From Planctomycetota bacterium (GTDB lineage: Bacteria; Planctomycetota; Phycisphaerae; Phycisphaerales; SM1A02): DNA of 44,225 bases. Positions 1 to 42,584 of this stretch are shown one piece after another (within the stretch, counting starts at the first letter, position 1; each line of letters begins with the position of its first letter). The stretch is taken from the NCBI GenBank assembly GCA_003671055.1, contig QWPV01000015.1, positions 1 to 44,225 on the forward strand, given 5' to 3'. The position numbers were made by a program, and so were the translations under genes. Below the pieces are notes generated by a model. It did not search any database and was not told where the DNA came from. It was given only the letters and a program-made list of their open reading frames with translations.

Positions 1-3000
1 GCTTTCGCAGGCGCTTCCTCAAGTTGCTTGAGCACCATCGCGATGACTTCAAAGCTCGGCTCATCCGCAGTCACGACGAGCGCGTTCGATCGCTTGTCCG
101 CAACGATGCGCGCATTGACCTGCACCGCAGGAGCATCTGGATTCACTTTGATCGCAACACCTTGCGTGCGACCCTTCGAGTCGAGTTGCAATGCTTGCGT
201 GAGAATACGAACGGCTTCTTCGGCTTTCGCGTTCGTGAGTTGGAAGGTTCGGATCGCGGTCTCGTCCGCACTTGAGGGCGAATCAAGACGATCCATCAAC
301 GCGCGAACTTGTTCGAACTGCGTCGCTGGGGCGTTGAGAACGATGCTATTCGTCCGAACGTCAGGCGTTGCAATCACGCCTTGCACATCAGATCCACGCT
401 TCGCGAATTGCTCGCTAATCAACCGCGCGACATCCGACGCTTGCGCCTTCTTCAGCACAATAATTTCAATGCGACGATCCACGCCTGATGCAGGGAGGTC
501 GAGCTTCGCGAGTAAGTCTCGGATGATGCGAAGGTCTTCGGCAGTGCCCGCGACCAAGAGCGCGCCACCAGCGGCTGAAGGAATCACGGTTGCGCTCGAC
601 GCGCTTCCCGATGCGGCGGTGCTCTCCTCGAGGAAGGACTTGAGTGACTGCGCAAGTTCGGGCGCTTGCACGAACTGCACTGGCAAGACTGCTGACTCAC
701 GATCAGGCGCAGCGAGTGAACTCTCGAGTGAGGAGAGCAGCGACGCGACTGCTTCGTGTTGCTTCGTCGTCGCGCGCACAACAATCTGCCGCGATCGTGG
801 ACTTGCAAAGAGCGAGGAACGACCACTCGTCGATCCCGCTTGCCCTTCACCTGGTCGTTGCGCGCGCTCACCGAGCGTCTCGCGAGCAAGCATTGCGAGT
901 GTGTCAACATCGCCATGCTTGACTGCATAGACCTTAACGACGCGCTGTTCAGCCTCCGTAGGTGCAACATCAAGCGACGTCACGATTTCCTGCACAAGTC
1001 CGTAGCGGTCGCCACGACCTGCGACGATCAGTACGTTTCGTCGATCATCGGCGCGCACGGAGACTGAGTCTTCCGCACCAGCGCCGCCCATCTCATTAAG
1101 CAGCGTCTCGACCGTCCGCGCAACTTCGCCCGCGCGTGCGTGCGCGAGTGGAATGACCCGGAACTGAAACTCGCGCGCTGCTTCTGGCACATCGAACACC
1201 TGCACGAGTTCCGTGATCTCCACAAGATCCGTCTCGCTCGCGGCAACAAAGACACTCGCGCTGCGTGGATCTCCCACGATCGACACGGTGCGCGCACCAA
1301 TTCGCGTGCGTCCGCCGGAAGCCAAGCGCGCGCGATCATCAAACAATTTCTGCAGTGCCTCTGCGACGCGCATTGCATCCGCGTGCTTGAGCGCGATCGG
1401 TCGCACTTTGAATTCCGCCGAAACAGGTCGATCGATTTCCTTCAGCAGCGTGCGGATCTCTGCGCGCACCGCATCATCCGCGCGCACAAGCAGAACACCC
1501 GCGCCATCCTCTGCGATCACAAGCACCGACGCGCGACGCTCACGGTCGCTGCCCACCACGACTTGCTCAATCATCTTCGCCGCTGCACTCGGCGCAAGCG
1601 CGACAAGCGGAATCACTTCGAGCGGCTTCGCTTCACTTGCGACAGGCTGATCAAGCGTTGCGACGAGACCATCAAGATCCTCGAAGTCGCCAGCGCCACT
1701 TATAACGATGGAGTTCGTGCGCACATCGGCAGCGAACTCTGGCGTGCGAACCACGATCCCCTGCTGCGAGAGCCCGCGCCCTCGTGCCGCGTAGATCTGC
1801 GTGAGCGTTGCAGCTAAGTCAACAGCTTTCGCGTTCTTCACAGGAAGAATGCGCACCGTGGGTAACGCGGCGATTTGTTCACGATCGATATACGCGATGA
1901 AGCGATCCGCAAACGCGATTGCTTCGGGTGATCCAATCACCGTCACCGCATTTGCGCCTGCCTCAGCAAACACACGAACGCGCGAAGGGTCGAACGCAAG
2001 TTGTTCCGCACCTTCGCCGCCAGTGCCAAGCGTCACTGCGAGTGAACGCAAGCGCGCACTACCAGTTCCCGGTTGAGCGAGTTGACGAAATGATTCCGCT
2101 ACACGAGTGCTCGATGCGTTCACGAGCGGATATGAACGCACCACGACACGCTCCGTCGCCGATCCACGCGCAAGCGTTGCGATCAATTGACCGACAGATT
2201 CAAAGTCCGCATCACTCGCCATGACCAACAACGAACGCTGCTCAAGATCCGCAACAATCGCAACACGCTTCGCAAGGTCGCCAGGCGCACCGCCATTGGG
2301 CGTCATCTTCGATACTGCTTGTTGCACAACGGCCGCGAGTTGCGCGGCATCCACGCTTGCAGGCAGAGGAATCGCGCGCACCTTTGTCGCACCCTTGGGC
2401 AAGCCTTTGGACGCTTGCTCAATGAGTTTCATCACACGCTCAATCTCTTTCGGACTACCGAGAAGGAGAAGGCTGTTCGACGCTTCGTCCACGGCGATCG
2501 TGACTCCGCCTTCTTCGACGGGTTCCGTCGGGCGCACGGGAAGCACGATGGGCTTGTCAGTGGACGATGGCGCGAGCGTTGGCGGTGTTGCAATCGGTGC
2601 GCCGTCTTGCGCCACCATCGTGAATAGTGACGAGAAAACATGCACCGCGAAAGGCATGCGCGGCGCGCCCGCATGCGAACGACCAGCTTCAGGTGGCACG
2701 GCGGTCGGCGTGGGGCTCGCTGCCTCTGGCTCGTATCGCTTGAGCAACTCATCAACGGAAATCACTTCAATGCCGCCTTGTTGCGATTCCAACATGCGTC
2801 GCAGCAACGCCGCAACTTCAATCGCCGACGCGCCCGCTCCATCGAGCGGCACCGAACGGAACTGTCTATTGCTCGCAATCGATGCGCGGTCGAGCTTCGC
2901 AACGATCTTTTCAATCGCGGCGTACTGCTCTTCCGTTGCGCGAACAAGCAGCGAGTTACTCGACACATTCACTCGGATGACCGGCGGCTGCTCAATGCCG

Positions 3001-6000
3001 TCATCCATTTCAAACACGTCCTTCAGTGCGGCAGCAATCTCCGCTGCGTCTGCGTTGCGCACCTCGAGGACCTGCACAAAGCGCGTCGCGCCGCCGGTTG
3101 GCCCCGCGTCGAGTTGCCGAAGCATTTCTTCAGCCGCATCAAGTTGCGAAGGCGTCGCACTAATGATGACTGCATTCAAACGCGCGTCCGCAGCAACTTT
3201 GAGGATCGGCTCCTGCGCCGCTTGCACGCCGCCGCGCGTGAATGCGCGACCTTGACGCGCCGTGTCGTCAACGAGCAATCGTTGGATGAGTGGCGCGAGT
3301 ATCTCCGCACGAGCGACCTTGAGAAACACGGTGCGAACACGCGCTGCGTCGCGCGGGCCTTGTACGTCAATCGCTGCGATGATCTTGTCCGACTCAGCAA
3401 GCAATTCAGGCGAGCCTGTCACGACGAGTGCGTTGCTCGATGGTTCCGCAGTAACCACTGGCTTTCGAAACTTTGGGTCGGCACTACTCCTTGCGTCGAG
3501 TGCTTGTTGCACACTCAGCGCGACATCAGCAGCCGACGCTTGTACGAGTGAGTACACGCGCGTCTCTGTCGTCACGCCTTCTTGGCGAGGCGCATCAAGT
3601 TGCGCGATGATCTCATTCGCCATCGGCATCAGCGTGGTGGGCGCAGTGATGATGACACGCATGTTGAGCGAATCCGCAACAACACGCGGCTCTGCTACTG
3701 GAAGCCCGGCCTTCACGATTGCGCTGAGCGCTTGCGGCCAGCGCGTGCGGTCGCTCAACATCGGTTGCAGTGCAGCAACGATGGTTTCTGGAGCGATGAA
3801 TCGCACAGGCACGACGCGAATATCGCTACTCGGAGCAGCGAACGCTTCCGCATCGAGACTCGTGAGAATGCCGCGCGCACGTTCCGCTTCGTCCTTCGAG
3901 CCAACGATGAGAATCGTTGCGCTTCCCGCAGGCACACTCAATTCCACTTTGAGCGCGCCGCTTGAAACGCTCGTGCGCTCAAGCACACGCGTGACCTGCT
4001 CAGCCAACTGACGCGCATCGCCCTTCGCAGGCGTATAGACAAACCATGTGCGATCAGCAAGATCGAGTGGCGAATCGAGATGCGTGATCAGACCTTCCGC
4101 AATGATCATGATCCGCGACGCACCACTCACGATGAGCGAGTTCGTGCGTGGATCTGCTTCGACACGCACAGGCGGCGTCGCATCGGGCTGTCCACGATTG
4201 CGGCGCATTCGCTCGAGCACGATGCGCGGATCGGTTTCCTGTTGATCCGCAAGCAATCGCTGCACGAGCGGTGCGACTTTCGCGGCGTCTGCATGCTTGA
4301 GAGAAAATGTCTTCGCATCCACGGCGTCGAGATTCGGAGAGTTGTCCAACTCCGTAATCAGCTTCTCCGCAATCGCGAGGTCGGAAGAACGACCGACAAG
4401 CAGCAGTGCATTCGAGCCACTCGCTGGCATCACTTTGACGCTGACCGCTTCGCCTGTTGCAGGATTGATAGCTCCAGCAAGCGCTTGCGTGAGTGACTGG
4501 GCTATGCCTGCAGCATCCGCATATTGCAACGGTCGCACACGCACACTCGCATCATCAAACGCGCCGACAGCTCCCTCTTGTGTTGATGAGCCTGGCGCTC
4601 CATCGAGCTGCAGGATGAGTGCTTCGGCAACTGGCATCAGCACATCAGGCGCACTCACGATGATCGTGTTCGAGCGGCGATCCGCAGCAACATCAAGGGC
4701 GCGTGCGCCGTCGCCGCGAAGACCTGGCTCCACTTGCGCGAGTCTTCCGGAGAGCGTTTCTTTCAAGAGCGGCGCAAGTTGATCCGCGCGCGCAGACTTC
4801 AACTTGAATACGCGCAACGTCGTTGCGGGAATGCTCGAGCCTTGCACGCCCTTCACGAGCGATTCAACTTTCACAAAAATATCAGGAGGCCCACTCACCA
4901 CAAGCGTCTTCGACACCGGTTCCGTGCTCACCACTGCTTGCGAGCTGCCTGGACCGAGTTGACTTGCTTGCGCGAGTTGGCGCAGCGTCGCCGCGATTGC
5001 ATCGAGGCTTCCATCCGTCACCTTCCACGTGCGAATCTCGGCTGGCGCAGCTTCCTGTTGACTATCGAGTTGCTCCACAAGTTTGGAGAAGCCCGGCATG
5101 CGCGCAATCGGCGCGTCAACAATCAACGCATTCATCTGCGCATCTGCACGCACAACAACTTCGCGCGGCTTCGCAAGTTCCGGACGCGGACGACCGCGCG
5201 GATCAACCGGCACTGTGGGCTGCGGGAACATCTCATCGAGCGTCTTCGCAAGATCAGTCGCTCGCGCAACCTTGAGTGGGAAGATTCGAATCTCGCGATC
5301 GTCAGCGTTGCCCTTGTTCGCGTCGTTGAGATCGGCAATGACTGCTTCGATCTCGGGAAGCAAATCAGCGTGCGCAGACACGATGATCGCATTCGTCTGT
5401 GGCTCCGCTGTAATCGACACTGGGCGCGCGCTGCGATCTTCAAGCGAGCGCGATGCATAGGTATTCGTCAACGCCAGCGCGAGGACGGATGCATCCGCGG
5501 TGCGAAGCTGCAAGATGCGAATCGGCGGCGCGACACCCGACTGCACATCGATCGACTTCAACAGACTCGCAAGCAGTTGATGCTGGGTGCCAGTCGCAGC
5601 GATGAGTAGCGAATTCGTCTTGTCAATTGCATCGATGATCGGCTCGCGCGCGAATCCAGCGGCTGTACTGAGCCGCCCTTGCGCCATGCCTTCCAAGAAC
5701 ACCTTCGCATCCGCTGCCTTCGCATACTGCAGTGGAACAACACGAATGTCCGCGGGCGGCGCTTGTGCGCGCAACACTTGATCGCACGCAGTCGCGAATC
5801 GCGTGGTTGCTTCTTCGGTACCTGAAATCAGCACTGTTCCATTCGTAGCGTCGACTTCAACCACGACTTCCGGAGTCGCACCCGCTGGCATCTCACTCGC
5901 AAGAAGTTTGCTCACGCGCTCAGCGAGCAGCGTTGGATCGAGTGCCAGTGCATCGATCACGCGCAATGTCTTGCGCACAGGAACCGCTTGAAGTTGCTCA

Positions 6001-9000
6001 AGGAGTTCTTCGGTCTTCTCAAAGGTTGTGGTGTCGCCCGCGACGATCAATGTGCGACTGTCGATCGACGTCTGCACGAGCACTTCAACAGCCTTGCCGC
6101 CGTTCACCGCTTGCGCACTGAGCATGCCGCGCGCTGCGAGGTCTCGCAAGTTCTGCGCAATCTTCTCCATATCGCCGCGCTCAACGTGATAGGTGCGCAG
6201 CGTCGCTTGTGGTGGCAGTGGAATGCGATCGAGTTCGGCAACGAGCGATTCGAAACTGACACGACGCTCTTTCGGTGCTTCAACGATCAGCGAGTTCGTT
6301 GTCGGATCGGCAGCAACGAACACTTCCTTCGGCTTCTGCAAGTGTGGAAGCGGTCGACCGCGTGAGTCGAGCGGCATGGGCGGAACTGGGAAGAGTCGAT
6401 CAAGCGCGAGAGCGAGGTCGGCTGCCTTCGCGGCCTTCAGTCCAACCACAAACGTTTCGCGCGCAGAAGCCTGACTCGTATCGCCCGCGCGATTCAATTG
6501 CTCAACAAACTCCTTCACGGAATCAAACAGTGCGGGGTGCGCACTCACGACGAGCGTGTTGGTCGATGCGTCCGCTTCAATCTTGAGCGGCTTCAGCCGT
6601 CGCTCCTCGGGTGCACGCTGTTCAAAGCGTGCGTTCAACATCGCCGCAATCTGCAGCGCATCGCCCGCGCGAAGTTGCAAGAGCCGCATGGGCTGCAACT
6701 CTCCGGACGTGGAAACATCGAGTTCGCGGACAAGTGATTCCAACATCGCAACTTGTGCCGCTTCGCCAACGACGAAGATTGTGTTCGTCGCGTCGACCAC
6801 TTCAATCGTCGCGTTCTGCACCGTGCGCGAGGGATCAATGAGCGTGGACTTCGCCACCAACTCGATAAGGATTGGCGCGATCTCCGATGCCTTCCCCTGC
6901 TTCACTGCGATCATCTTGCCTGAACGCGGTGGCGGCATGAGTTGACGCGCTTGCTGCAACGCCTGCTGATAGTTCGCGACGCTCTCGCGCGATCCACTGA
7001 GAATCAACATGCCGCTCTGCGCGTCGGCTTCAATCGTGGGGCGATCCATTTCGCCAGGCTTTGCGCCGCGCGCGAGCACTGTAAACACCGTGTCCGCGCG
7101 CTGCATCAACTGCACTGGATCGATGCCCGCCATCGGAACCGTCTGTACTTGCCATGAGCCTGGTGCCATGTGATCAAGCGACTGCACGAGCGATTGGAGT
7201 GTCGCGAATTGATCAGGTCTCGCACTCACAAGGAGCGAATGCGTTGCATCCATCGCTTCGACATCGGGTGCAGCAAACTCCGAACCATCGCGAGGATCAA
7301 GCATCTGCTTCGAGAGTGCTTGGACTTGCGCAGCGATCGCGGATGGAAGTGCGTTCTTCACTTCAAGTACGCGCGTTTCACGCTCGGCAGGTCGACTCTG
7401 CTCCAACTGCGCGAGCAATGCGGCGAAGCGTTCGATGGACTGTGCGCTTCCGATGAGCACGAGCTGACGACTCGTTGGATCGAGTTCGATGCGGATCGAA
7501 CGCGACACATCAGCGGCCGGCGTCTGCGCTTCAAAGAGTTCGCGCGCGCGAGCGACCATTGCTTCTGGTTGCGGCGAAGTCACCTTCAACAATCGAACCT
7601 GTCGCTCGATGTTGGCAGGAAGATCGAGCACTGTGACGATCTCGCGAATGCCAGTGATATCTGTGCTATCCGCTGACACGAGAATCGTGCGGCCATCCGG
7701 ACCACCGACAACCGTGACATCCGTTTGCTGTCGCGAAGTGAGCAGCGACTTCAACGCTTGCAACACCGTGTCGGATGTTGCGTTCGTCAGTGGAATCGCC
7801 GCGATCGCGCGATCGCCACGCAATCGCTCGCCGCGAACCATGCCGGGCTTCAGCGTGAAGCCTTCCATCTCCGCAACAAAGCGCTCTGCGTCATCGATGG
7901 AATCGAGTGAACCCACGAGCGTGACGCGACGCGCTTCTGGCAGCGCAACAACCGTCGGTCGTTTCTCTGGTGGATAGCCCGCGAACAATTGTTCGAGCCG
8001 AGACTTCGCGTCCACTGCTTCGATCTTCGTGAGCGTGAGCGTCTTCATGCCTCGACCAGGCGCGGCTGTCGCTGTTGCGCCGCCGAGCGCGGGCACATCA
8101 AGCAACTCAATCGTCTGCATCACTTGATCGATCTTCGCACGGGAACCGCGTGCAACGATGGAGTTCGTGCGGTCATCTGCAGCGAGCACTAATCCAGAGA
8201 CGCGATTCTCTTCAACTTTCGAGCGCTTGCCGTCGGCGGCGTTGATGATGTACTCCACGACGCGTTCACCCATGAGCGCACTCAGGCTCTTGAGCAATTC
8301 CGATGCTTTCGCGTTGCGAATCGGGATGAGCTCGATGATATTTTCAACATCTTTGCGATCGAGTTCATCGATGATGCGCTGCAAGCGTCGCACTTGCGCG
8401 GCGGTTTCGACAAGCAACACTGCGTTCTGTTGTTCAAGCGCCGTCACTGAGCCGTAACTTGCGACGAGATTCTTGAGCTGCTCTGCGACACCCTTCGCTT
8501 GCGCGTTCATCAGCGGCAGCAGCACAGTGACAATCGTGTCGTCACTCACTTGCGCAGGAATCGTGCCCACATAGGTCGGCACGTTCTCGCGCTTCATGTC
8601 ATCTAACTTCTGCAGGAATAGTCGACCTCCCTCCGCGCGCAACATGCAGTTCTGCGTTTGAAGAAGGATGTTCAGCGTTTGCAGCGCTTCATCAAGCGAG
8701 TAGTCGCGCGGCGAGATGTAGTCGACCGTGCCGACAGGAACTTCAATCTCGCGAACCACTGGCCAACCAGTTGTCCTGCTGAAGTAATCGAGAATCTGGT
8801 CGTAGGTTTGTCCCTTGAAATTGAAACGGAAGCGCGAAGCTGGAGCGGCGTCCTTCGGAGGTGCTGTAACCGCATCCTGTGTAGTGACGGGCGCGCCGGA
8901 TTGTGGAGTTGCAATCGCGGCGCCGTTCGAGAGGCAGCCAACCACGGTGAGGAGTGAAAGCGTTTGTTTCGGCAGCCGTGCTTTACGCTTGGTGTTTCCG

Positions 9001-9050
9001 GAACGCGCCTTCGCATCGGTCTTGGGCTTCTTCGGCTTCGAATCTCTCAT
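1..9050 (-). CDS. Giant secretin-family protein (GspD-like), 3' end beyond window
   Basis: The reading frame is open from the ATG at 9050 to the window edge (3016 codons, no stop). It starts with a basic stretch (residues 4-28) and a short hydrophobic segment (30-46), either an ordinary signal peptide or a lipoprotein signal with the lipobox VVGC at Cys39. Residues about 73-150 look like an N0/STN domain. From about residue 155 onward there are some 35 consecutive N1-like (secretin_N/NolW) domains of about 80 residues, each with a core like AD.RTNSLIV followed by a helix ending in LD. A GGAGAGAGG ribosome binding site precedes the ATG. It is the last visible gene of the type II secretion operon, where gspD is expected. 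GspD proteins are usually about 650-750 residues. The membrane-inserting C-terminal secretin domain is not visible, so calling it a pore is inference; a secretin-like scaffold without a pore is the alternative. Confidence 0.85.
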   Translation of the reverse strand, partial: MRDSKPKKPKTDAKARSGNTKRKARLPKQTLSLLTVVGCLSNGAAIATPQSGAPVTTQDAVTAPPKDAAPASRFRFNFKGQTYDQILDYFSRTTGWPVVREIEVPVGTVDYISPRDYSLDEALQTLNILLQTQNCMLRAEGGRLFLQKLDDMKRENVPTYVGTIPAQVSDDTIVTVLLPLMNAQAKGVAEQLKNLVASYGSVTALEQQNAVLLVETAAQVRRLQRIIDELDRKDVENIIELIPIRNAKASELLKSLSALMGERVVEYIINAADGKRSKVEENRVSGLVLAADDRTNSIVARGSRAKIDQVMQTIELLDVPALGGATATAAPGRGMKTLTLTKIEAVDAKSRLEQLFAGYPPEKRPTVVALPEARRVTLVGSLDSIDDAERFVAEMEGFTLKPGMVRGERLRGDRAIAAIPLTNATSDTVLQALKSLLTSRQQTDVTVVGGPDGRTILVSADSTDITGIREIVTVLDLPANIERQVRLLKVTSPQPEAMVARARELFEAQTPAADVSRSIRIELDPTSRQLVLIGSAQSIERFAALLAQLEQSRPAERETRVLEVKNALPSAIAAQVQALSKQMLDPRDGSEFAAPDVEAMDATHSLLVSARPDQFATLQSLVQSLDHMAPGSWQVQTVPMAGIDPVQLMQRADTVFTVLARGAKPGEMDRPTIEADAQSGMLILSGSRESVANYQQALQQARQLMPPPRSGKMIAVKQGKASEIAPILIELVAKSTLIDPSRTVQNATIEVVDATNTIFVVGEAAQVAMLESLVRELDVSTSGELQPMRLLQLRAGDALQIAAMLNARFEQRAPEERRLKPLKIEADASTNTLVVSAHPALFDSVKEFVEQLNRAGDTSQASARETFVVGLKAAKAADLALALDRLFPVPPMPLDSRGRPLPHLQKPKEVFVAADPTTNSLIVEAPKERRVSFESLVAELDRIPLPPQATLRTYHVERGDMEKIAQNLRDLAARGMLSAQAVNGGKAVEVLVQTSIDSRTLIVAGDTTTFEKTEELLEQLQAVPVRKTLRVIDALALDPTLLAERVSKLLASEMPAGATPEVVVEVDATNGTVLISGTEEATTRFATACDQVLRAQAPPADIRVVPLQYAKAADAKVFLEGMAQGRLSTAAGFAREPIIDAIDKTNSLLIAATGTQHQLLASLLKSIDVQSGVAPPIRILQLRTADASVLALALTNTYASRSLEDRSARPVSITAEPQTNAIIVSAHADLLPEIEAVIADLNDANKGNADDREIRIFPLKVARATDLAKTLDEMFPQPTVPVDPRGRPRPELAKPREVVVRADAQMNALIVDAPIARMPGFSKLVEQLDSQQEAAPAEIRTWKVTDGSLDAIAATLRQLAQASQLGPGSSQAVVSTEPVSKTLVVSGPPDIFVKVESLVKGVQGSSIPATTLRVFKLKSARADQLAPLLKETLSGRLAQVEPGLRGDGARALDVAADRRSNTIIVSAPDVLMPVAEALILQLDGAPGSSTQEGAVGAFDDASVRVRPLQYADAAGIAQSLTQALAGAINPATGEAVSVKVMPASGSNALLLVGRSSDLAIAEKLITELDNSPNLDAVDAKTFSLKHADAAKVAPLVQRLLADQQETDPRIVLERMRRNRGQPDATPPVRVEADPRTNSLIVSGASRIMIIAEGLITHLDSPLDLADRTWFVYTPAKGDARQLAEQVTRVLERTSVSSGALKVELSVPAGSATILIVGSKDEAERARGILTSLDAEAFAAPSSDIRVVPVRFIAPETIVAALQPMLSDRTRWPQALSAIVKAGLPVAEPRVVADSLNMRVIITAPTTLMPMANEIIAQLDAPRQEGVTTETRVYSLVQASAADVALSVQQALDARSSADPKFRKPVVTAEPSSNALVVTGSPELLAESDKIIAAIDVQGPRDAARVRTVFLKVARAEILAPLIQRLLVDDTARQGRAFTRGGVQAAQEPILKVAADARLNAVIISATPSQLDAAEEMLRQLDAGPTGGATRFVQVLEVRNADAAEIAAALKDVFEMDDGIEQPPVIRVNVSSNSLLVRATEEQYAAIEKIVAKLDRASIASNRQFRSVPLDGAGASAIEVAALLRRMLESQQGGIEVISVDELLKRYEPEAASPTPTAVPPEAGRSHAGAPRMPFAVHVFSSLFTMVAQDGAPIATPPTLAPSSTDKPIVLPVRPTEPVEEGGVTIAVDEASNSLLLLGSPKEIERVMKLIEQASKGLPKGATKVRAIPLPASVDAAQLAAVVQQAVSKMTPNGGAPGDLAKRVAIVADLEQRSLLVMASDADFESVGQLIATLARGSATERVVVRSYPLVNASSTRVAESFRQLAQPGTGSARLRSLAVTLGTGGEGAEQLAFDPSRVRVFAEAGANAVTVIGSPEAIAFADRFIAYIDREQIAALPTVRILPVKNAKAVDLAATLTQIYAARGRGLSQQGIVVRTPEFAADVRTNSIVISGAGDFEDLDGLVATLDQPVASEAKPLEVIPLVALAPSAAAKMIEQVVVGSDRERRASVLVIAEDGAGVLLVRADDAVRAEIRTLLKEIDRPVSAEFKVRPIALKHADAMRVAEALQKLFDDRARLASGGRTRIGARTVSIVGDPRSASVFVAASETDLVEITELVQVFDVPEAAREFQFRVIPLAHARAGEVARTVETLLNEMGGAGAEDSVSVRADDRRNVLIVAGRGDRYGLVQEIVTSLDVAPTEAEQRVVKVYAVKHGDVDTLAMLARETLGERAQRPGEGQAGSTSGRSSLFASPRSRQIVVRATTKQHEAVASLLSSLESSLAAPDRESAVLPVQFVQAPELAQSLKSFLEESTAASGSASSATVIPSAAGGALLVAGTAEDLRIIRDLLAKLDLPASGVDRRIEIIVLKKAQASDVARLISEQFAKRGSDVQGVIATPDVRTNSIVLNAPATQFEQVRALMDRLDSPSSADETAIRTFQLTNAKAEEAVRILTQALQLDSKGRTQGVAIKVNPDAPAVQVNARIVADKRSNALVVTADEPSFEVIAMVLKQLEEAPAK
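3..8586 (-). repeat. About 35 tandem N1/NolW-domain coding repeats
   Basis: The repeats are visible at protein level. Each unit of about 75-90 residues has a strand like R(V/I)xxLxxAxA, a helix, a second strand with D-x-R-(T/S)-N-(S/A)-(L/I)-(I/V)-V, and a final helix ending L(D/E). The count of 35 comes from my manual segmentation and may be off by one or two because some units lack the Asn core (for example near residues 260 and 2750). DNA identity between units is too low for a recent minisatellite, so the array is old. One unit, near residues 2095-2190, is interrupted by a proline-rich linker with a hydrophobic patch. Confidence 0.8.
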
Positions 9051-9110: not shown

Positions 9111-10130
9111 TTACTGCCCGATCGGACTGCGTTGCGAGAGATTGTCTCCAATCCTAACGCGAACGCGAACACCGGAACTCTCAAACTCTGCGAGGTCGTA
9201 CTCAACACTCCTGAACACGAGATCGCCAACTGCTTGCCCTGGCGCAAGTTGCAGCGCAGAACCATCTGCACAACGGAGGAATGCTTCGTCTCCCGTGGGG
9301 CCTCGAACGACCCCCGTCAACTTCCAAGTTCCATAGGGAAATCCAGAATTTGTGGGAGTTGCGGCCGCTACATCTGCCGTGAGCGGATTCGTCGCTGGTA
9401 TCGGCGGAACTGTGGGGGCAGCTCCGTTCTTCGCAACGACGATTGGAGGAGGCATCGGAATAAGGAACGGATTCGATCCTGCGAGCGCAGCATAGGGCGC
9501 GAATCCAACCACTGGGTCGCCATCGCGCATGAGCTCTGCGCTCTGCTGCGAGCCCACGATGAACATCGTTGTCAGGCGCACCGTCAAGCCCACGCGATCG
9601 CCGCTCGACTTTGGATCGAACCGAATCATGTCGATCCGATGCAGCCATGGTTCCGATGCCAATCGATAGAGCAATTGAAGCATCTGGTCATATCGACCTG
9701 AAGCTGCGACTGTCGCTTGAATCTCACCAAAGTCAGGCTCCTCGCGAAGCTTCTTCAAGCTTCCTTTCGCGAACTCGCTGCGTGCTGGGGTTCCCTGAAT
9801 CACTGCAGCGCTGGTTCCAACGCTCGCGTCAGAAAGACTCAGTTCTTCGAGCACTCGATTCATCCGAGCGCGCAGTGCGCTGTCGACGAGCTCACTCGAA
9901 CCGCCGAGCGATCGGTCGCCGAGTGATTTCAATTCCAATGCACGCTTGGGTTTCGCGATGCGTTCAGCGCGGAGGTTCGCGAGAACGCCTTCGGAAACTG
10001 CGATTGAGTCCTGTGCTGTGAGGCGAACGCTACTGGCGCGGCCGGAGCCTCCGAGGAAACCGAGCAGTGACGCGATGATCGCGATGCTTCCGAGCACAAG
10101 CGTAAAGCGGAATCGTTTGAGTGTGCTCAT
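9111..10130 (-). CDS. GspM/PilO-like protein fused to a PilP/GspC-like domain
   Basis: Inner-membrane assembly-platform protein of 339 residues. A single transmembrane segment lies at about residues 8-28, followed by a helical stretch (45-100) and a PilO-like periplasmic domain (about 105-205). A Pro/Ala-rich linker (about 215-260) follows. The last 75 residues, from WKLTGVV through FLRCADG to VRVRIGD, have the compact beta pattern of the PilP/GspC homology region that contacts the secretin N0 domain. The ATG at 10130 overlaps the upstream stop as TGATG; a GTG at 10133 is possible. It sits between the gspL-like gene and the giant secretin gene, fitting an inner-membrane anchor. The family call rests on topology and position because PilO and GspM sequences diverge strongly. 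Confidence 0.72.
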   Translation of the reverse strand: MSTLKRFRFTLVLGSIAIIASLLGFLGGSGRASSVRLTAQDSIAVSEGVLANLRAERIAKPKRALELKSLGDRSLGGSSELVDSALRARMNRVLEELSLSDASVGTSAAVIQGTPARSEFAKGSLKKLREEPDFGEIQATVAASGRYDQMLQLLYRLASEPWLHRIDMIRFDPKSSGDRVGLTVRLTTMFIVGSQQSAELMRDGDPVVGFAPYAALAGSNPFLIPMPPPIVVAKNGAAPTVPPIPATNPLTADVAAATPTNSGFPYGTWKLTGVVRGPTGDEAFLRCADGSALQLAPGQAVGDLVFRSVEYDLAEFESSGVRVRVRIGDNLSQRSPIGQ

Positions 10131-11752
10131 CACAGCGCGCCACCCTTCGTCGCCGAAGGAGCGGGCGCGGTTGGCGGCGCCGCCTTGGTGGGTCGCGCTT
10201 CACTCGTGCGGACGACATACGCGAACGGATACGGAAGTCGACGACCGCCACGCGCATCGGCGCCCGTTGAAGTGACGCCGAATGACTTCGCGTTCACGAG
10301 TGCATCGCGGAGCGCATCTGCGGTTGCGCGATCCTTCGCTTCGCCATCAAGCGTGAACTTCAATTCACGACCTGTGACTTCCCAGCGATCGCGCGCAAAC
10401 TCAATCTCGCCGGGCGCGAGCAGTCCGGACATCCCGTCAAGCACTACTAGTTTCGAATCGGGCGCAAAGCCACGCAGCGCGACGAGGTAGTCCATCCATG
10501 CAGGATCTGACGCGAGCCAAAGGTTGATGTGCTTCACGCGAAATTCTTCGCGCTTCGCTCGTTGAAGTTCGGGCAGTGCGATTGTGGCTTGTTCACGCAA
10601 CTTCTCGGCGTGCGACTGCAGTGCGTTCAATTCGAAGGATCCTGCCGACCAACCGAATACCGCCGCGAGAGCCGCCATCGCAGCGACACCGATCACACGC
10701 CTTCGCATCCGCGCAGCACGATCAATGGGCTGCGCGGGATGCAGGAGATCAACAACACGGCGAGCGCTCAGCCTTGCGAGCAACAATCCCGCGAGTGGCA
10801 AACACGACGCGCGCGCAGTGTCGCCTGCTGCACCCGCTGGCATTCGAAGGAGAGGGTGCGCCTCGAGCCGCTTCGCACTGCATCCCGCGGCAGCCGCGAG
10901 TTGCGGAATCAATTCGAGAGCGAGCGCACTCTCCGCGAGCACATACACCTGCGTGATCGCTGGAGCAACAGAAGCACTGCGCAGCGCGAGGAGTGCTCGT
11001 CGTGCTTCCATCAGAATGCGGGAACTTCGCTGCTCGGCGTTAAGACCGATTTCTGCCGCGCGCGAAAACGTGGGTGCGCCCTGGTCGATCAACAAGAACT
11101 CCACGCGATCGGCGACGCAATCGACGACAAATACACAGCTTTGCGCGCTGTCCTTGAGTGTGCGGAACAACGCGAGCGTGCCAAGCGTTCGCACGCTCAC
11201 GGCACCAGCAGGAGTGCTCACAGAAGACAGTACTGCACACAACGATTCAAATCGCGCGAGCGATAATGCTGCGCCGACGATCTTGCTCGCGCCATGCGCG
11301 GACTCGAGCACAACGTAATCGGTGACGCCACTCGCGCCTTCCACAGGTAAATCGCGCAAGACGGCGAGCCGCGCCATGTCACTCAATTCATCAACATCGT
11401 CAGTGGGCAAGTCGATGGTTCGCAACATCGCATCAAGACGCGAAAGCGAAAGCAACGCGCCGCTGTGCAGCGCGCCTTCGTTCCTGAGCGCATCGACGAC
11501 GCCTCGCTCTGCACTCATCGCATCGACACTGTCGCTCGGCGGCGCAACTTCCCACGCACGATGCACGACAACTGCGCCATTCAAGATCTCGGCGTCGATC
11601 GCGCGGCCACCACCGCTGGTCACTTCGACAACGCAGCGCGCATGCGTCTCACGCAAACTTGATTGCGCTGATCCTCTGTTCAACGCACGAGAAATCCACG
11701 AGCGACTGCTCGAAGTTTCAGGCGTCGATGGAGAATTCATCGCATTTTTCAT
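10130..11752 (-). CDS. gspL: GspL-like assembly-platform protein (PilM/PilN-like fusion)
   Basis: Protein of 540 residues. The N-terminal about 340 residues look like a cytoplasmic actin-like PilM/GspL domain. One transmembrane helix follows at about 350-370 after the basic cluster RMRRR, then a periplasmic PilN-like domain with a coiled stretch. The C-terminus is rich in Ala, Pro and Thr. In the known family GspL recruits the GspE ATPase through the cytoplasmic domain and pairs with GspM in the periplasm. Its stop overlaps the start of the GspM-like gene (TGATG), suggesting translational coupling and equal amounts. The ATG at 11752 was chosen because 52 bases separate it from the gspK stop and no better start is seen. 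The fold is inferred from layout and position. Confidence 0.7.
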   Translation of the reverse strand: MKNAMNSPSTPETSSSRSWISRALNRGSAQSSLRETHARCVVEVTSGGGRAIDAEILNGAVVVHRAWEVAPPSDSVDAMSAERGVVDALRNEGALHSGALLSLSRLDAMLRTIDLPTDDVDELSDMARLAVLRDLPVEGASGVTDYVVLESAHGASKIVGAALSLARFESLCAVLSSVSTPAGAVSVRTLGTLALFRTLKDSAQSCVFVVDCVADRVEFLLIDQGAPTFSRAAEIGLNAEQRSSRILMEARRALLALRSASVAPAITQVYVLAESALALELIPQLAAAAGCSAKRLEAHPLLRMPAGAAGDTARASCLPLAGLLLARLSARRVVDLLHPAQPIDRAARMRRRVIGVAAMAALAAVFGWSAGSFELNALQSHAEKLREQATIALPELQRAKREEFRVKHINLWLASDPAWMDYLVALRGFAPDSKLVVLDGMSGLLAPGEIEFARDRWEVTGRELKFTLDGEAKDRATADALRDALVNAKSFGVTSTGADARGGRRLPYPFAYVVRTSEARPTKAAPPTAPAPSATKGGAL

Positions 11753-11804: not shown

Positions 11805-13244
11805 TTACCGCTCGACGCGGGGTGGTGTTGATCGTGGGGTCCCTGAGGAAACCCACCGCCCGACTGCATGACTTCCGAGCGGTCGTGAAGGTGTCGTCGG
11901 AACAGCCATCTTGTCAGATTCTCCCTCGTTCGCTGAAGAAAACTTGGGAATCGTAAAAGTCACTTCAGTGAATTTCATTTTCTCGTTATCAGCAATCTCA
12001 GGGTCGAGAATCTTCGAAGCGGTCATATCCGTCGAATCCAATTTTTCTTCGATCGGCGCAGTCTCGGCAGTTGTTGCGCTACGTTGCGTTGCGATTGCGG
12101 CGAATGCTCCGCGCATCGATGTGTCGCGGAGCAGTGCGAGCCGAGGCGTCGCGTCGGCGAAGTCAATCACGCAGTCGAAGCGAGCGGTGTTGCGTGCGGT
12201 GAATCGCTCATCCTTTGGCGCAACATCGAGTGGTTCATACCCTGCCTCGATGCTGAATCGCCACTGCAAGCATCGCGCAGTGCAACGCGACGCGACTGCC
12301 ACGAATTCTTCGGGAGTCAGAATGCCGTGCGACACGAGCCAGGCGCAACCGCGACGTTCGTCAAGGCTCAAGAGCGCGCGCTCTTCAACGATGCGCGCGC
12401 CACGCTCCACGCCGATGCCCTCGATTGCGCCCAACACTTCGCTTGGCGCGAATTGCACAGAGACGCGCCCATTCACACGATCGCCGTCTACCCCACTCAG
12501 TGCGAGGAGCGCTGCGTCCCACTCCTCAACCTCGACTGCTTCCGCGCGCAACGCTCTCACGACGCGCGATTCAAACGATTTGGAATCCCCTTCGGAATCT
12601 GCGAACGCGCGCGCTGCAACGCGGAGGAGCGCATCGCCCCCAACTTCCCGAAGCCGTCTCGTCGAAACATCGTCAAGCGATTCAGCAAGCAGCACACGCG
12701 GATCCCCTTCGCCATCGATCATGGGCTCGCTCGCGTAGCGCGTGAGAAAGGGCAACAACGCAGCACTTGTTGCGTCGACGGCTTCGAGCGCATGCAGTCC
12801 AGCCCGCGCACGAAACTGCGTCGGCGAGAGTTCCACTGCTGCTGATGCAAGGATGCGCTTCAACATGTCATCCGTGATGTCTTCCATCCCGAGCTTGCCC
12901 GCTTCGGCTTGAAAGAACGTTTCGTCTTCGAAAGGAACCAATCGCGTCACAAGCCGCTCCGAACCGACCGTGCGTTCAAGCAGCTCTCCATCACGCTGCG
13001 CGATCGAGGGAGGCGCGTTGCCTTGCAACAACTCCTGCCGCGCGGATGCGAGTGAAGCACTCACGAATGCCACGCCATCAAGTGCTGCTGCTCGCGCGAT
13101 GGCCGAGCGTTCACCGCCTCTGGTATCCGCGACCGCGCCTCGCGCGATGGAGATTGCGCCCGCCGCAGCGAGCAGCGCCATCGCGAGTGCGATGAGCACG
13201 GCAAGCAAGACGAATGCGCGCCTGCCATTGATTTGTGCGCGCAT
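11805..13244 (-). CDS. gspK: GspK-type minor pseudopilin
   Basis: Large minor pseudopilin of 479 residues that would cap the pseudopilus tip with GspI and GspJ. The N-terminus RRAFVLLAVLIALAM is a prepilin-like segment. The usual Glu at +5 is replaced by a small residue, as is typical of GspK. The residue before the presumed cleavage site is Ala rather than Gly. The long globular part contains a helical region with IEGIGVERGARIVEE, resembling the helix-hairpin-helix-like segment of GspK. The C-terminal about 90 residues are low-complexity and probably disordered. The ATG at 13244 overlaps, as TGATG, the stop that gspJ would use without its duplication. A GTG at 13247 is an alternative start. 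Confidence 0.8.
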   Translation of the reverse strand: MRAQINGRRAFVLLAVLIALAMALLAAAGAISIARGAVADTRGGERSAIARAAALDGVAFVSASLASARQELLQGNAPPSIAQRDGELLERTVGSERLVTRLVPFEDETFFQAEAGKLGMEDITDDMLKRILASAAVELSPTQFRARAGLHALEAVDATSAALLPFLTRYASEPMIDGEGDPRVLLAESLDDVSTRRLREVGGDALLRVAARAFADSEGDSKSFESRVVRALRAEAVEVEEWDAALLALSGVDGDRVNGRVSVQFAPSEVLGAIEGIGVERGARIVEERALLSLDERRGCAWLVSHGILTPEEFVAVASRCTARCLQWRFSIEAGYEPLDVAPKDERFTARNTARFDCVIDFADATPRLALLRDTSMRGAFAAIATQRSATTAETAPIEEKLDSTDMTASKILDPEIADNEKMKFTEVTFTIPKFSSANEGESDKMAVPTTPSRPLGSHAVGRWVSSGTPRSTPPRVER

Positions 13245-13944
13245 CACTCATCCTCCACATCGTCGCGTGCGCGAAGCATTGCCCGCACATCAACAACAGG
13301 CGCATCAAGTGTGCGGAACAACCGTCGACGATCTGGCGTCGGCGCGAGTTCAGCGAGAGCGTCCGAATCTTCGCCGCGCACAAACCAAATTGACATCTCA
13401 ATCGCAACGGGAAATCCGCCCTCGGTGCGCGCATCAAACGCGTCACGCCATCCGTCTTGCGCGAGATAGCGCACGAATCAAACGCGTCACGCCATCCGTC
13501 TTGCGCGAGATAGCGCACGCGGAGCGCGCGAACAAGCGCATCCAGTTGCGTGGAGCCGCGCCCAACATCAAGCGCGAGTTGACCATTGTTCAGCGCGATC
13601 CACAGCGTCACAAACTCACTCGGCGCAGTCTCTGCTGATGGCGTCTCATCAAGTTGTACCGAACTAGATCGCACGCGCAGCGATGCTTCGCTGCCAACAA
13701 TTCCGCTCGCGCCTCCGTCGGCTTCGACGACTGCGGTATCCATCGCACGCTCAAGCGCCGTGAAAACAGCTTCCGCGCACGATGCTTCTGTCGCATTTCG
13801 CGCGAGTCTTCCGCGAGCGAGCGAGATGTCCCATGCGAATTTCCCGACCGCGCCGAGCAGCAGTGATGCGATGGAGATTGCGAGCAGCACTTCGAGAAGT
13901 GTGAATGCGCGGGCCGCGCGGGGATGGTGGCACGCACGGCTCAC
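13111..13944 (-). CDS. gspJ: GspJ-type minor pseudopilin, C-terminus frameshifted by a 44-base duplication
   Basis: The N-terminus RAFTLLEVLLAISIAS is a prepilin signal with Glu at +5 and Ala at -1. The GTG at 13944 overlaps the gspI stop (GTGA). After residue about 157 (sequence GWRDAFD) a 44-base tandem duplication shifts the frame. As written, translation then runs through an Arg/Cys-rich sequence unlike a pseudopilin and stops at 13111, inside gspK. Without the duplication the frame continues ARTEGGFPVAIEMSIWFV and ends at 13244, exactly overlapping the gspK start as in neighbouring gene pairs. That alternative end is clearly native. The copy is therefore either a mutated, possibly non-functional allele or an assembly error. 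Confidence 0.8.
   Translation of the reverse strand: MSRACHHPRAARAFTLLEVLLAISIASLLLGAVGKFAWDISLARGRLARNATEASCAEAVFTALERAMDTAVVEADGGASGIVGSEASLRVRSSSVQLDETPSAETAPSEFVTLWIALNNGQLALDVGRGSTQLDALVRALRVRYLAQDGWRDAFDSCAISRKTDGVTRLMRAPRADFPLRLRCQFGLCAAKIRTLSLNSRRRQIVDGCSAHLMRLLLMCGQCFAHATMWRMSDARTNQWQARIRLACRAHRTRDGAARCGGRNLHRARRGRGYQRR
13433..13519. repeat. 44-base-period tandem duplication in gspJ
   Basis: Bases 13433-13475 recur exactly at 13477-13519, a 43-base identity separated by one extra A at 13476. The period of 44 is not a multiple of three and changes the gspJ frame. Removing one copy restores a continuous pseudopilin frame. Confidence 0.97.
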
Positions 13945-14324
13945 TCTGCGTCGTCCTTCCGAAGTCGCACGAGCCGCTCACGCTCAATGATGATCGGACC
14001 GTCGACCGATGTTGCAAGTCGCACCGTCGCAACCGCACGCACAAGATCTCCAACCCCTGTTGGTTCGACAAGCAGCGTGACTGCGAATTCTTCTCCATTC
14101 ACCGCCGCGCTTGTCCCACGCAATTCGTCCGTCGAGACGAGTCCCGCATCAAGTTCAACAAGTCGCGAACACGCAAGGTCGTCGGCGCGAGCATGCATCG
14201 ACGCGCGCATCACGCCGTCCATCGATCCGCGCATAACTCCGATGATTACCGATGCGCCCGCAACGAACAGTGCGAGGCTGAGCATCAATTCAAGAAGGAT
14301 GCCGCCGCGCAATGCGCGTTGCAT
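13941..14324 (-). CDS. gspI: GspI-type minor pseudopilin
   Basis: Small pseudopilin of 127 residues. The N-terminus RGGILLELMLSLALF has Gly before the cleavage site and Glu at +5, followed by one hydrophobic helix. The rest is a short beta-rich domain with IIIERERLVRLRK near the end. Size and position between gspH and gspJ fit GspI, which nucleates the tip complex with GspJ and GspK. The ATG at 14324 overlaps the gspH stop as TGATG (a GTG lies one codon upstream), and its own stop overlaps the gspJ start, so translation is probably coupled along the four minor pseudopilins. The assignment to GspI rather than another minor pseudopilin rests on order and length. Confidence 0.75.
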   Translation of the reverse strand: MQRALRGGILLELMLSLALFVAGASVIIGVMRGSMDGVMRASMHARADDLACSRLVELDAGLVSTDELRGTSAAVNGEEFAVTLLVEPTGVGDLVRAVATVRLATSVDGPIIIERERLVRLRKDDAE

Positions 14325-14962
14325 CACTCCGCTCCGTCATCGCCAGAAACTGGCTCAAACTCCGGTCGATCTGTGTCGTCCACAACACGAACAACATCCG
14401 CACGGCGTGGACGACCTGTCACGGGATCAATCGAGAGGCTTCGCGCAGTGCCACCCTGCATCGCAAGCACGAGTGTGGGCGCGATCAACGCAGTGCCATC
14501 GGGAAGAAAGAGTGCGACGGTCCGCGTGCCACTTGCAGTCTCCTTCGACTTTGCATCCTCATCCTCGTCGTCGTCGTCCGTCTGCGCTGCAAACTGAATA
14601 TCAAGCGTCATTCCATCCGGAAGCGTCCAACGCGCCCACGACGCTCTGATGCACGCCTCGCCATCTGCGTGCCCCGCGTCCTCATCGTCTGCGGCTTCTG
14701 ATGTCGCCGGGGTTGTCGCGAAGAATCGTGCTTGCAGCGTCTCCGCGCCTTCGCCATCACTGAGCGCAACGATCTCGACTGCTTGGCCTTCTTCACGCGC
14801 TGCTGCGCGTGCCATCACAAGTTGCATCGTGAGATGGTCTTCACCTGCGTCGAGTTCATGTCGACCAAGCGCACTCCACGCATACGGCAACGCGATCGCT
14901 GCGAGGAGCAGCAAGATCCCGATGGAAACGAGGAGTTCGAGAATGGTGAAACCGCGCCGCAT
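14324..14962 (-). CDS. gspH: GspH-type minor pseudopilin
   Basis: Pseudopilin of 212 residues starting MRRGFTILELLVSIGILL, a textbook prepilin leader with Gly at -1, Phe at +1 and Glu at +5. A TTGGAGAG ribosome binding site just upstream selects the ATG at 14962; the in-frame TTG at 14974 is part of that site. The globular part contains an acidic loop (EAADDEDAGHADGE) and a run of Asp/Glu near residue 130. Order after gspG and length suggest GspH, which joins the pseudopilus tip to the GspG shaft. The acidic insertions are longer than I expect for GspH and may be lineage-specific. Confidence 0.75.
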   Translation of the reverse strand: MRRGFTILELLVSIGILLLLAAIALPYAWSALGRHELDAGEDHLTMQLVMARAAAREEGQAVEIVALSDGEGAETLQARFFATTPATSEAADDEDAGHADGEACIRASWARWTLPDGMTLDIQFAAQTDDDDEDEDAKSKETASGTRTVALFLPDGTALIAPTLVLAMQGGTARSLSIDPVTGRPRRADVVRVVDDTDRPEFEPVSGDDGAE

Positions 14963-14979
14963 GAATCTCTCCAAAGTGA

Positions 14980-15498
14980 TCAGCCGCCCGCAGGCGTGTT
15001 GCCCGAGGAGCCAGAGAACTCACCGAGGTCATCGCCTTCGGCAGCCTTGCGTGCATCATGATTCGTGATGTCATCATCGGTGCCTTCTTCGCCATCAGCG
15101 CCGATGGAAACAATGTCGAAGTCGAGACCTTCAGTTTCGCTTGGAATGTTGAAGATCCACTCGCGTCCCCATGCGTCTTTCGGCGCTGGATTCTTGAGAT
15201 ATGGACCACCGTACTTCGCTTGATCTTCTTCGCTGCTCACTGCGTCTTTCGACCAGATGACGGCGAGTCCCTCTTCTTCCGTGGGCCAACGCTTCATATC
15301 AAAGCGGAACGATTCGATACCGCGCTCCAACTCCTGCATCTGCAACCGAGTGGTGCCAACTTCGCTCTTTTCCTGAGCGCCGATGAGGTTCACAAAGACC
15401 AACCCGCCGATGGCGAGAAGGATGCCAATGACAATCAAGAGTTCAAGGATGGTGAAGCCGCGTCGTGTGCGGCGGGACGCTTGGGTCGATGTTCGCAT
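14980..15498 (-). CDS. gspG: GspG major pseudopilin
   Basis: Major pseudopilin of 172 residues that forms the pseudopilus shaft. The leader RRGFTILELLIVIGILLAI has Gly -1, Phe +1 and Glu +5. The body carries GspG hallmarks: a segment with RWPTEEEGL, then GGPYLKNPAPKDAWGREW, and an acidic calcium-binding loop SIGADGEEGTDDDI. The C-terminal 25 residues are Gly/Ser/Asp-rich. The ATG at 15498 is preceded by AGGAG at good spacing; the frame is open further upstream but that part is not pilin-like. A gap of 116 bases separates it from gspF, the largest gap inside the operon, which may allow separate, higher expression of this abundant subunit. Confidence 0.93.
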   Translation of the reverse strand: MRTSTQASRRTRRGFTILELLIVIGILLAIGGLVFVNLIGAQEKSEVGTTRLQMQELERGIESFRFDMKRWPTEEEGLAVIWSKDAVSSEEDQAKYGGPYLKNPAPKDAWGREWIFNIPSETEGLDFDIVSIGADGEEGTDDDITNHDARKAAEGDDLGEFSGSSGNTPAGG

Positions 15499-15525
15499 GC
15501 GTTTCTCCTGTGGAAGTTGGAATCG

Positions 15526-15531
15526 ATCATA
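15526..15531 (-). promoter_or_regulatory. gspG: Possible -10 element upstream of gspG
   Basis: TATGAT on the minus strand lies 27 bases before the gspG start in the only sizeable gap of the operon, leaving room for a short leader with the AGGAG site. No convincing -35 hexamer is seen, so this is weak. Confidence 0.3.
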
Positions 15532-15614
15532 GCGACATGCTCCGAAATCGCTGCATCGAGCTTTAGTTCCGAGAACTACGCGGAATTCGTAAACAGCTGC
15601 GGTGTGCGAAGCAC

Positions 15615-16796
15615 TCAAAGTTGCGATGACATCTGCATCATCGGAAGCACAAGCGCGAGGAAGATGAAAAAGACCAACCCCGCGAGGCTCAACAGCAGTG
15701 CTGGCTCCATCAATTTCAAGAGTGCAGTGAATGCGCGATCCACGCGGCGCTCCATCGTGTCAGCAAGTGAGACGAGCACGGTTGGCAAACTGTTTGCGCT
15801 CTCACCCACGGTGATCATTTCAATCACATCTTCTTCAAAGAGTCCACTCTGCGCGAGCGGCACGGAGAGTTGCTCGCCTTGGCGGACGGCTTCGGTTGCT
15901 TGCGTAATCGCGCGCGCCATCAACACATTGCCCGCGGCATCGCGCGCAATTTCGAGCGCGCCGATCATTGGAATGCCATTCTCAAGCAGTGTCCCGAGGA
16001 TGCGTGCGAAGCGCGCGACGGCGAGCGACGCGAAGAGTCCACCGATCTTTGGAAGCTTCAATACGCGTCGTGCAATCGCGAGCCGGAGTGTTTCCTTCTT
16101 CAACGCCACTCCAATCGCAACGACGATCGCAGCAACAAGCACGAGGAGGATTGGCCAGTACGCAACCATCGCTTCACTCGTGCCAAGCAGCAAACGCGTC
16201 GAGAATGGCAGCGGCATGTCGCCAAAAAGATCTTTGAACTTCGGCACAAAGAAGATAAGTGCGCCCACGATGACAGCGAGCGCAACGGTGAGCAGCACCA
16301 CTGGATACAGCAGATTGCCGATGATCTTCGACCGCAATTCCGCTTGGTTATCGAGGAAGGTCCCGAGCCGAGCGAGGACACTCTCCAGAAACGCACCGCG
16401 CTCTCCAGCACGAATCATCGCGACATGCACTTCACCAAAGATGTGCGGATGCAGCGCCATCGAATCGGAGAATCGTTCGCCCTTCGACACCGCCTCCGCA
16501 ACTTCACTCCAAACGCCTGCTAGGGTTGGATTAGATTTTCCACGCGAGAGCAATCGAAGCGCACGAAGAAGCGGCACGCCAGCACGCAGAAGTTCAGAGA
16601 GTTGCACGTAAGAACGTGCGAGTACTCGCGTCGACACGCGCTTGCGCCGCTTTCGTGTCGCGGCTTCAGATACGCGCAGCGGCGTCAGGCCACGCGCAGC
16701 AAGTTCCGTGAGAATCGACTGTTCGGTATTGCCTTCCGCTCGCCCGCGCACGCGACGACCATTCAAATCGCGCGCAATGTAGGCAAAGGTCGGCAC
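15615..16796 (-). CDS. gspF: GspF inner-membrane platform protein
   Basis: Polytopic platform protein of 393 residues that works with the secretion ATPase to assemble pseudopilins. It begins PTFAYIARDLNGRRV, the typical GspF opening. Two GspF domains follow: the first contains GVPLLRALRLLSRG and IRAGERGAFLESVL; the second contains ARFARILGTLLENGIPM and MITVGESANSLPTVL. Transmembrane segments lie after the first domain (LYPVVLLTVALAVIVGAL) and at the C-terminus (LLLSLAGLVFFIFLALVL). GTG at 16796 is chosen from this N-terminus and from a TACTCT hexamer six bases upstream. The frame is open upstream into the preceding gene, but that extension is not GspF-like. No gspE precedes it, unlike many type II operons. 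Confidence 0.93.
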   Translation of the reverse strand: MPTFAYIARDLNGRRVRGRAEGNTEQSILTELAARGLTPLRVSEAATRKRRKRVSTRVLARSYVQLSELLRAGVPLLRALRLLSRGKSNPTLAGVWSEVAEAVSKGERFSDSMALHPHIFGEVHVAMIRAGERGAFLESVLARLGTFLDNQAELRSKIIGNLLYPVVLLTVALAVIVGALIFFVPKFKDLFGDMPLPFSTRLLLGTSEAMVAYWPILLVLVAAIVVAIGVALKKETLRLAIARRVLKLPKIGGLFASLAVARFARILGTLLENGIPMIGALEIARDAAGNVLMARAITQATEAVRQGEQLSVPLAQSGLFEEDVIEMITVGESANSLPTVLVSLADTMERRVDRAFTALLKLMEPALLLSLAGLVFFIFLALVLPMMQMSSQL

Positions 16797-16802
16797 GCAA
16801 AC

Positions 16803-16808
16803 AGAGTA
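16803..16808 (-). promoter_or_regulatory. gspF: Putative leaderless -10 element of gspF
   Basis: TACTCT on the minus strand lies six bases before the GTG of gspF, just after the PEP-CTERM-like gene stop (16819). The spacing would place transcription start at the GTG itself. Confidence 0.4.
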
Positions 16809-16818
16809 CCAACAGTGT

Positions 16819-31486: not shown

Positions 31487-31507
31487 AATCGTTCTCGAAG
31501 TCGCCGC

Positions 31508-39099: not shown

Positions 39100-39110
39100 C
39101 TCTACTGCGC

Positions 39111-39116
39111 AAGATA
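39111..39116 (-). promoter_or_regulatory. Possible -10 element of the chemosensory operon
   Basis: TATCTT on the minus strand lies 11 bases before the receptor ATG. On the plus strand the overlapping bases read GATACT, which could serve the divergent DUF1232 gene. Both readings are tentative. Confidence 0.3.
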
Positions 39117-39187
39117 CTCGACATGCCGTGATGAGCAGCGCGCTGTTGCATTCACCAACGCAGCGCAAGGCAACCGATGAATTGTGC

Positions 39188-42538: not shown

Positions 42539-42544
42539 GTTCGA

Positions 42545-42550
42545 AAGGTA
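42545..42550 (-). promoter_or_regulatory. fkp: Putative leaderless -10 element of the FKP gene
   Basis: TACCTT on the minus strand is six bases from the ATG at 42538. It shares the 59-base divergent region with the mutarotase gene. Confidence 0.5.
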
Positions 42551-42584
42551 GCACAGTGCACCGCGACTCAACGCATGAATCGGC

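Follow-up and report, generated by a model that had tools for sequence, protein, structure and literature searches.

A putative giant type II secretin with 52 N1-type units encoded in the gsp operon of Phycisphaerales

The window, by which we mean the whole stretch of DNA analysed here (44,225 nucleotides), is contig C8 of a draft genome of 2.85 Mb, and its left end carries a giant gspD gene, which is the last gene of a gspF-G-H-I-J-K-L-M operon on the minus strand. The sequence-only reading of this DNA had placed a giant secretin at the gspD position of a type II operon, and this position is borne out, the giant being by homology the GspD that ends a gspF-to-gspM operon. The features of the locus, with the evidence used for each, are as follows.

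3..9050, minus: giant gspD, first 3016 codons, no stop (open at the left edge of the window)
8907..9050, minus: basic N-terminal region and hydrophobic leader, residues 1-48 (translation by eye)
8586..8837, minus: N0 domain, residues 72-155 (PF21305 in orthologues; PDB N0 matches)
3..8546, minus: N1-type (Secretin_N) units 1-35 (PF03958, 32 matches; own profile; N1-N3 of GspD in PDB)
2415..2867, minus: special unit 25, residues 2062-2212, divided by a long insert
2508..2732, minus: insert within unit 25 (disorder predicted); it has a hydrophobic patch that is conserved, and the motif VEVISVEELLKR, also conserved, comes before it
264..2153, minus: residues 2300-2929 (merged units 27-34), the part modelled by AF2 and compared with known folds (Foldseek, VIA-align)
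9111..10133, minus: gspM-like gene (NCBIfam GspM E 0.003, below cut-off; adjoins the giant gspD in relatives)
10130..11752, minus: gspL, with PilM/GspL-type cytoplasmic domain (PDB PilM; PF11104; co-occurrence)
11805..13247, minus: gspK (PF03934 T2SSK in 13/17 orthologues)
13111..13944, minus: prepilin-like gene at the GspJ position (N_methyl PF07963; conserved order)
13941..14327, minus: small prepilin-like ORF of 128 aa at the GspI position (hydrophobic N-terminus, by eye)
14324..14974, minus: prepilin-like gene at the GspH position (N_methyl; weak GspH matches)
14980..15618, minus: gspG, major pseudopilin (PF08334 E 5e-25)
15615..16856, minus: gspF (PF00482 E 9e-49)
Contig C88, L005:128-5525: giant gspD remainder, 1799 codons, stop included (NCBIfam gspD TIGR02517)

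Immediately upstream of the giant start, GGAGAGAGG, a ribosome-binding-like site, was read from the DNA, and the open frame of 3016 codons reported earlier, unfinished at the window edge, is present as described. Residues 1-48 likely form a signal sequence, since a hydrophobic stretch at residues 28-48 is seen by eye, and the leader noticed in the sequence-only reading, together with the N0-like domain that follows it, is retained here. For N0, the Pfam model of the GspD N0 domain (PF21305) is matched by 26 of 29 orthologues, with the window copy itself below threshold (E 0.036), and a profile of the domain matches the solved N0 domains of PilQ and GspD in PDB. N0 faces the inner-membrane platform in ordinary systems.

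The frame is carried on by a second contig, C88 (8466 bp), whose start is identical to the frame's final 127 bases on C8. This overlap is exact, and in a search of the whole genome full-length copies of the 127 bp were confined to C8 and C88, with no other contig joining C8 at the break. Because 320 residues spanning the junction align without gaps to two same-genus orthologues that each lie in a single contig (87.8% and 84.1%), the join is regarded as sound. The joined protein has 4815 residues (512 kDa), in the order N0, 52 N1-type units and C-terminal secretin domain, and is about seven times the usual size of a secretin, with about 52 modules of the ring-forming type as against three to five in pores known so far. 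A leftward extension had been proposed as the way of finding a secretin domain, and the domain does lie on C88: PF00263 (Secretin) is matched with E 9.5e-50, the NCBIfam GspD equivalog TIGR02517 (cut-off 351) scores the C88 part at 648.8 bits, and the secretin end matches GspD in PDB with E 1e-67.

Breaks inside the giant gene occur in several relatives. As in the window genome, the array lies on two separate contigs or frames in G388 (frames of 2128 and 2734 aa), G512 and G513, and the giant is split into several frames in the otherwise near-complete genomes PNC21 (L088 = G612; L143) and PNC22 (L167), where either sequencing errors or real decay may be the cause. Such breaks indicate that assemblies tend to split this gene, so that its size may be under-reported in databases. 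The strand opposite to the giant gene (window 1-9050; L015-L088) also has very long open frames, and in L022 the antisense frame of 4361 aa exceeds the fragment of the real gene there, which is a trap for gene callers.

The profile searches that had been suggested for the repeated units identify them as N1-type, in agreement with their predicted fold: Pfam Secretin_N (PF03958) matches 32 stretches in the window part (whole-protein E 7e-271), and a profile built from eight window units matches N1-N3 of solved GspD rings in PDB (best E 1e-23). The earlier count of about 35 N1/NolW-like units stands for the window, in which our own profile finds exactly 35 units up to residue 3016, and falls short for the whole protein, in which units 36-52 are located on C88 and the full array of 52 units, of about 78 residues each, ends at residue 4492 (one profile match divided by a 72-aa insert is merged in this count). 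Linkers between units have 6-8 residues in 85% of 3313 cases, most commonly 7, and in nearly all ordinary three-unit GspDs parsed from this class the N1-N2 and N2-N3 linkers have 6 residues each; joints of equal geometry would be expected to show such closeness.

Since the units of one protein are only 22-52% identical to their nearest sisters, the array is old and each position has its own history, and a probable duplication of five units (7-11 to 12-16) can still be seen. Between same-genus giants all 53 profile matches pair reciprocally one to one and in order (86.6% identity), and between families f1 and f2 reciprocal pairs exist for 36-40 units, with an identity of about 39% and an order that is kept in nearly all. 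When 4803 codons are compared with an orthologue of the same genus, dN/dS is 0.08. The 73 giants that were parsed have between 30 and 56 units, the commonest counts being 50 (15 genomes) and 52 (13 genomes), and the short giants lack contiguous blocks of units.

What sets unit 25 apart is an insert of 72 residues that follows its first helix and comes ahead of its second strand, with the conserved motif before it. The insert sequence itself is not conserved and is predicted to be disordered; a 13-residue stretch with mean hydropathy above 1.2 is present in 41 of 47 versions of the insert, as compared with 31% of shuffled sequences. Counted from the secretin end, the long-insert unit lies 25-27 units away in most main-clade giants and 20-21 units away in several short forms. 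The loop carrying the insert corresponds to the N3 loop that forms the constriction in ordinary GspD, and for this reason we speculate that the insert might act as a gate or brace in the middle of a tube. Constriction sites in N3 have been mentioned for a GspD-type secretin (PMC6882859).

The order of the operon is kept in about 70 loci of relatives. Assignment of gspL rests on a profile of its orthologues, which matches PilM in PDB (E 4e-18), on PF11104 in 11 of 18 orthologues, and on co-occurrence, GspL being present in 120 of the 127 genomes with the giant and in none of the 142 without it (Fisher p 9e-69, genomes taken as independent). The C-terminal part of the gspM-like protein resembles by eye the homology-region domain of GspC, and this GspM/C-like protein had no match in PDB. 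The operon does not contain gspE, and several T2SSE ATPases are encoded elsewhere in the genome. The gene at the GspJ position extends 136 bp into gspK and encodes 277 aa, as compared with 222-225 aa and a gspK overlap of about 1 bp in same-genus orthologues; a small frameshift near its end, natural or from assembly, is possible. Directly upstream of gspF (16819-17625, minus) lies the gene of an exported protein of 268 aa, whose tail weakly resembles PEP-CTERM; no counterpart was found upstream of the relatives' operons.

A survey was made of 269 genomes of the order that are at least 90% complete, and 127 of them have a strong match to the C-terminal part of the giant. The sequence-only reading had proposed a search for conserved length in related Phycisphaerae, and giant length is indeed widespread, with an open frame of at least 3000 aa in about 111 of these 127 genomes. 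Same-genus relatives have giants of 4844-4911 aa, each in one contig, and giants are also present in genomes consisting of a single contig (G320, 4856 aa; G087, 4634; G603, 4526; G555, 3776) as well as in further families of this class (G657, 4484 aa; G639, 4598; G638, 4144), that of G657 lying in one contig with both N0 and the secretin domain. The giant is absent altogether from some genera of the same family. In the tree of secretin domains, the giants fall into two supported clades, one with families f1, f2 and f5 (97/99) and the other with f3 and f4 (90/94). This tree needs two changes to gigantism; a single origin may apply. Giant and short GspD can coexist as paralogues, since G411 (L085 and L186) holds a 52-unit giant and an ordinary three-unit GspD. 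The nearest among the named records listed is Baikal-deep-G172, a genome from a lake metagenome. All 80 named records that were retrieved have the look of metagenome assemblies; the carriers appear to be uncultured.

For structure prediction, two stretches of the array (630 and 321 residues) were modelled by AlphaFold. The units are predicted to have a beta-alpha-beta-beta-alpha fold (mean pLDDT 78-79 for the two stretches), single units superpose on secretin N domains with an rmsd of 1.3-2 A over 59-74 residues (Z 9-10.7), and the top-ranked Foldseek and VIA matches are secretins; in these models, the array units fold like the N domains of solved GspD. Consecutive units gave pTM values of 0.36 and 0.55, at which the units are good and the stack is unreliable, and superpositions of several units on GspD were mostly poor (rmsd 4.7-19 A). 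Coevolution was analysed by mean-field DCA (4526 distinct units; 4195 pairs of neighbours) with an i/i+2 control; the fold within a single unit was recovered, and no coupling above the control was detected between consecutive units. Ring stacking of the units is what we infer; the unit fold and the linkers are consistent with it.

To our knowledge, known secretins have three to six N rings. The giant resembles GspD (PulD, XcpQ, EpsD) in its N0/N1-type/secretin order, gsp operon, unit fold, linker length and TIGR02517 match, but ordinary GspD has three N1-type domains in about 650-750 aa, whereas the giants have 30-56 units in 3100-5100 aa. In PulD, N0-N3 and the secretin core make a 20-nm channel in which N1-N3 are tightly packed, and N0 is bound by GspC (PMC6882859). 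Like the giant, PilQ of Thermus thermophilus is a secretin with extra N domains, and its six N rings, 35 nm long, are proposed to span a wide periplasm (PMC5745081, PMC4463427); PilQ, however, has N0-N5 in 757 aa and serves the type IV pilus and DNA uptake, while the giant has about 53 N domains and belongs to a type II operon. Expanded arrays are also present in other secretins of Planctomycetota (L091, L092; 1200-2300 aa, about 6-12 units), which differ from the giant in having four to eight times fewer units, longer gaps and a distant position in the secretin-domain tree. The ordinary GspD of some Phycisphaerales (L089, L090, L094; 721-936 aa) lies downstream of gspF and gspG with similar spacing and has the same N0 and linkers, but its three units are not expanded and it forms a branch separate from the giants. 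In the open-licence PMC literature, which was searched for giant or long secretins and for GspD or secretins in Planctomycetes or Phycisphaerales, no earlier description of such a giant was found.

From these data we propose, with a probability of roughly 0.6, that the giant is a type II secretin GspD whose 52 units are stacked as rings into one periplasmic tube. The protein would be the outer-membrane secretin of the type II system, of which 12-15 copies would assemble; the C-terminal secretin domains would form a gated outer-membrane pore, N0 would dock on the inner-membrane platform of GspM/C, L and F, and between them the 52 units would make a continuous tube through the periplasm, along which a pseudopilus or piston and the substrates would travel. 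A channel of 70-110 nm had been estimated earlier; its stacking logic is kept as an inference, and because there are 52 units instead of 35 the length becomes about 140-200 nm, assuming 2.5-4 nm per ring from PulD and Thermus PilQ. An assembly of 12-15 copies would have a mass of 6-8 MDa.

Other arrangements of the same units have to be weighed against this tube. The giant might be an ordinary pore in which the last few units form rings and the rest is a flexible or folded tether, so that 12-15 chains would run from the pore to the inner membrane or the peptidoglycan across a wide and variable periplasm. This is unlikely in our judgement and still deserves attention, since low inter-unit pTM and absent coevolution between units agree with it and a unit number varying between 30 and 56 through gain and loss of blocks would be tolerable for a tether; a flexible chain, however, does not suggest linkers that are short and constant along the whole array, nor positions each kept as a distinct unit between families with counts clustering at 50 and 52. 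The linkers also speak against an array that folds back or coils within the chain, with units side by side in a compact form suited to an ordinary periplasm, because 6-8 residues match the vertically stacked N1-N2-N3 of ordinary GspD, and a lateral interface within the chain should leave a coupling between consecutive units, and none was detected. Lateral packing of N1-type domains is seen in known rings and could in principle occur within one chain, and AF2 yielded no fixed stack; on balance folding back seems improbable.

We find it harder still to accept the array as a ruler or scaffold that sets the spacing of the membranes or binds peptidoglycan at a fixed depth, with secretion secondary, because a conserved gsp operon and a GspL that occurs strictly together with the giant favour a working secretion machine, even if in different families the long-insert unit keeps a distance of 25-27 units from the outer-membrane end and the N-terminal part is more variable. 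That the giant is an assembly artefact or a decaying gene would be suggested by the draft state of the genome and the spread of the gene over two contigs, but this was rejected and is given hardly any weight: the overlap between C8 and C88 is unique and exact, single-contig orthologues of the same genus match the junction without gaps, unbroken frames of 3776-4856 aa exist in single-contig genomes, and the low dN/dS (0.08) points in the same direction.

If the stacked tube is taken further, the spacing of the membranes would be set, or matched, by how many units there are, as proposed for the six rings of Thermus PilQ, and the long insert, at a depth of about 25-27 rings from the outer membrane, might on a speculative view be a mid-tube gate or brace. 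The full proposal is a conduit of about 53 rings and 140-200 nm that spans a permanently wide Phycisphaerae periplasm, with the ring number setting its length and the ring of hydrophobic inserts serving as a part-way gate or wall anchor; this we offer tentatively, as an idea somewhat more apt to fail than to hold. A wide periplasm in carriers of the giant is possible. Against the stacked tube, besides the low pTM values and the missing coupling between units, it counts that our literature search found no image of a Phycisphaerales cell with a periplasm of 140-200 nm and that, for type II systems, we know of no pseudopilus of 140-200 nm. The crateriform surface structures of planctomycetes, to which the array had also been linked earlier, were considered and judged an unlikely counterpart, because craters are absent from described Phycisphaeraceae (PMC8882080, PMC7783415), and those of Planctopirus are always close to the cytoplasmic membrane and are missing where that membrane invaginates (PMC5394234).

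In this group a ring module has been multiplied about tenfold in evolution, and its number is almost constant in many genera. A stack of these units would rank with the longest known channels across a cell envelope, and the membranes would then have to be kept more than 100 nm apart or be bridged at special sites, so that the disputed cell plan of planctomycetes becomes testable from one gene. The natural series from 30 to 56 units raises the question of whether ring number measures the width of the periplasm, and a further question is how a pseudopilus pushes its substrate along so long a tube.

Elsewhere in the window, a chemotaxis cluster (30329-39189, minus) encodes an MCP, two CheW proteins, CheR, a CheA-CheY fusion and CheB, together with a response regulator with a SpoIIE phosphatase, and the region 39599-42571 (minus) encodes a protein that has a fucose pyrophosphorylase and a GHMP kinase domain, as in the bifunctional FKP enzyme.
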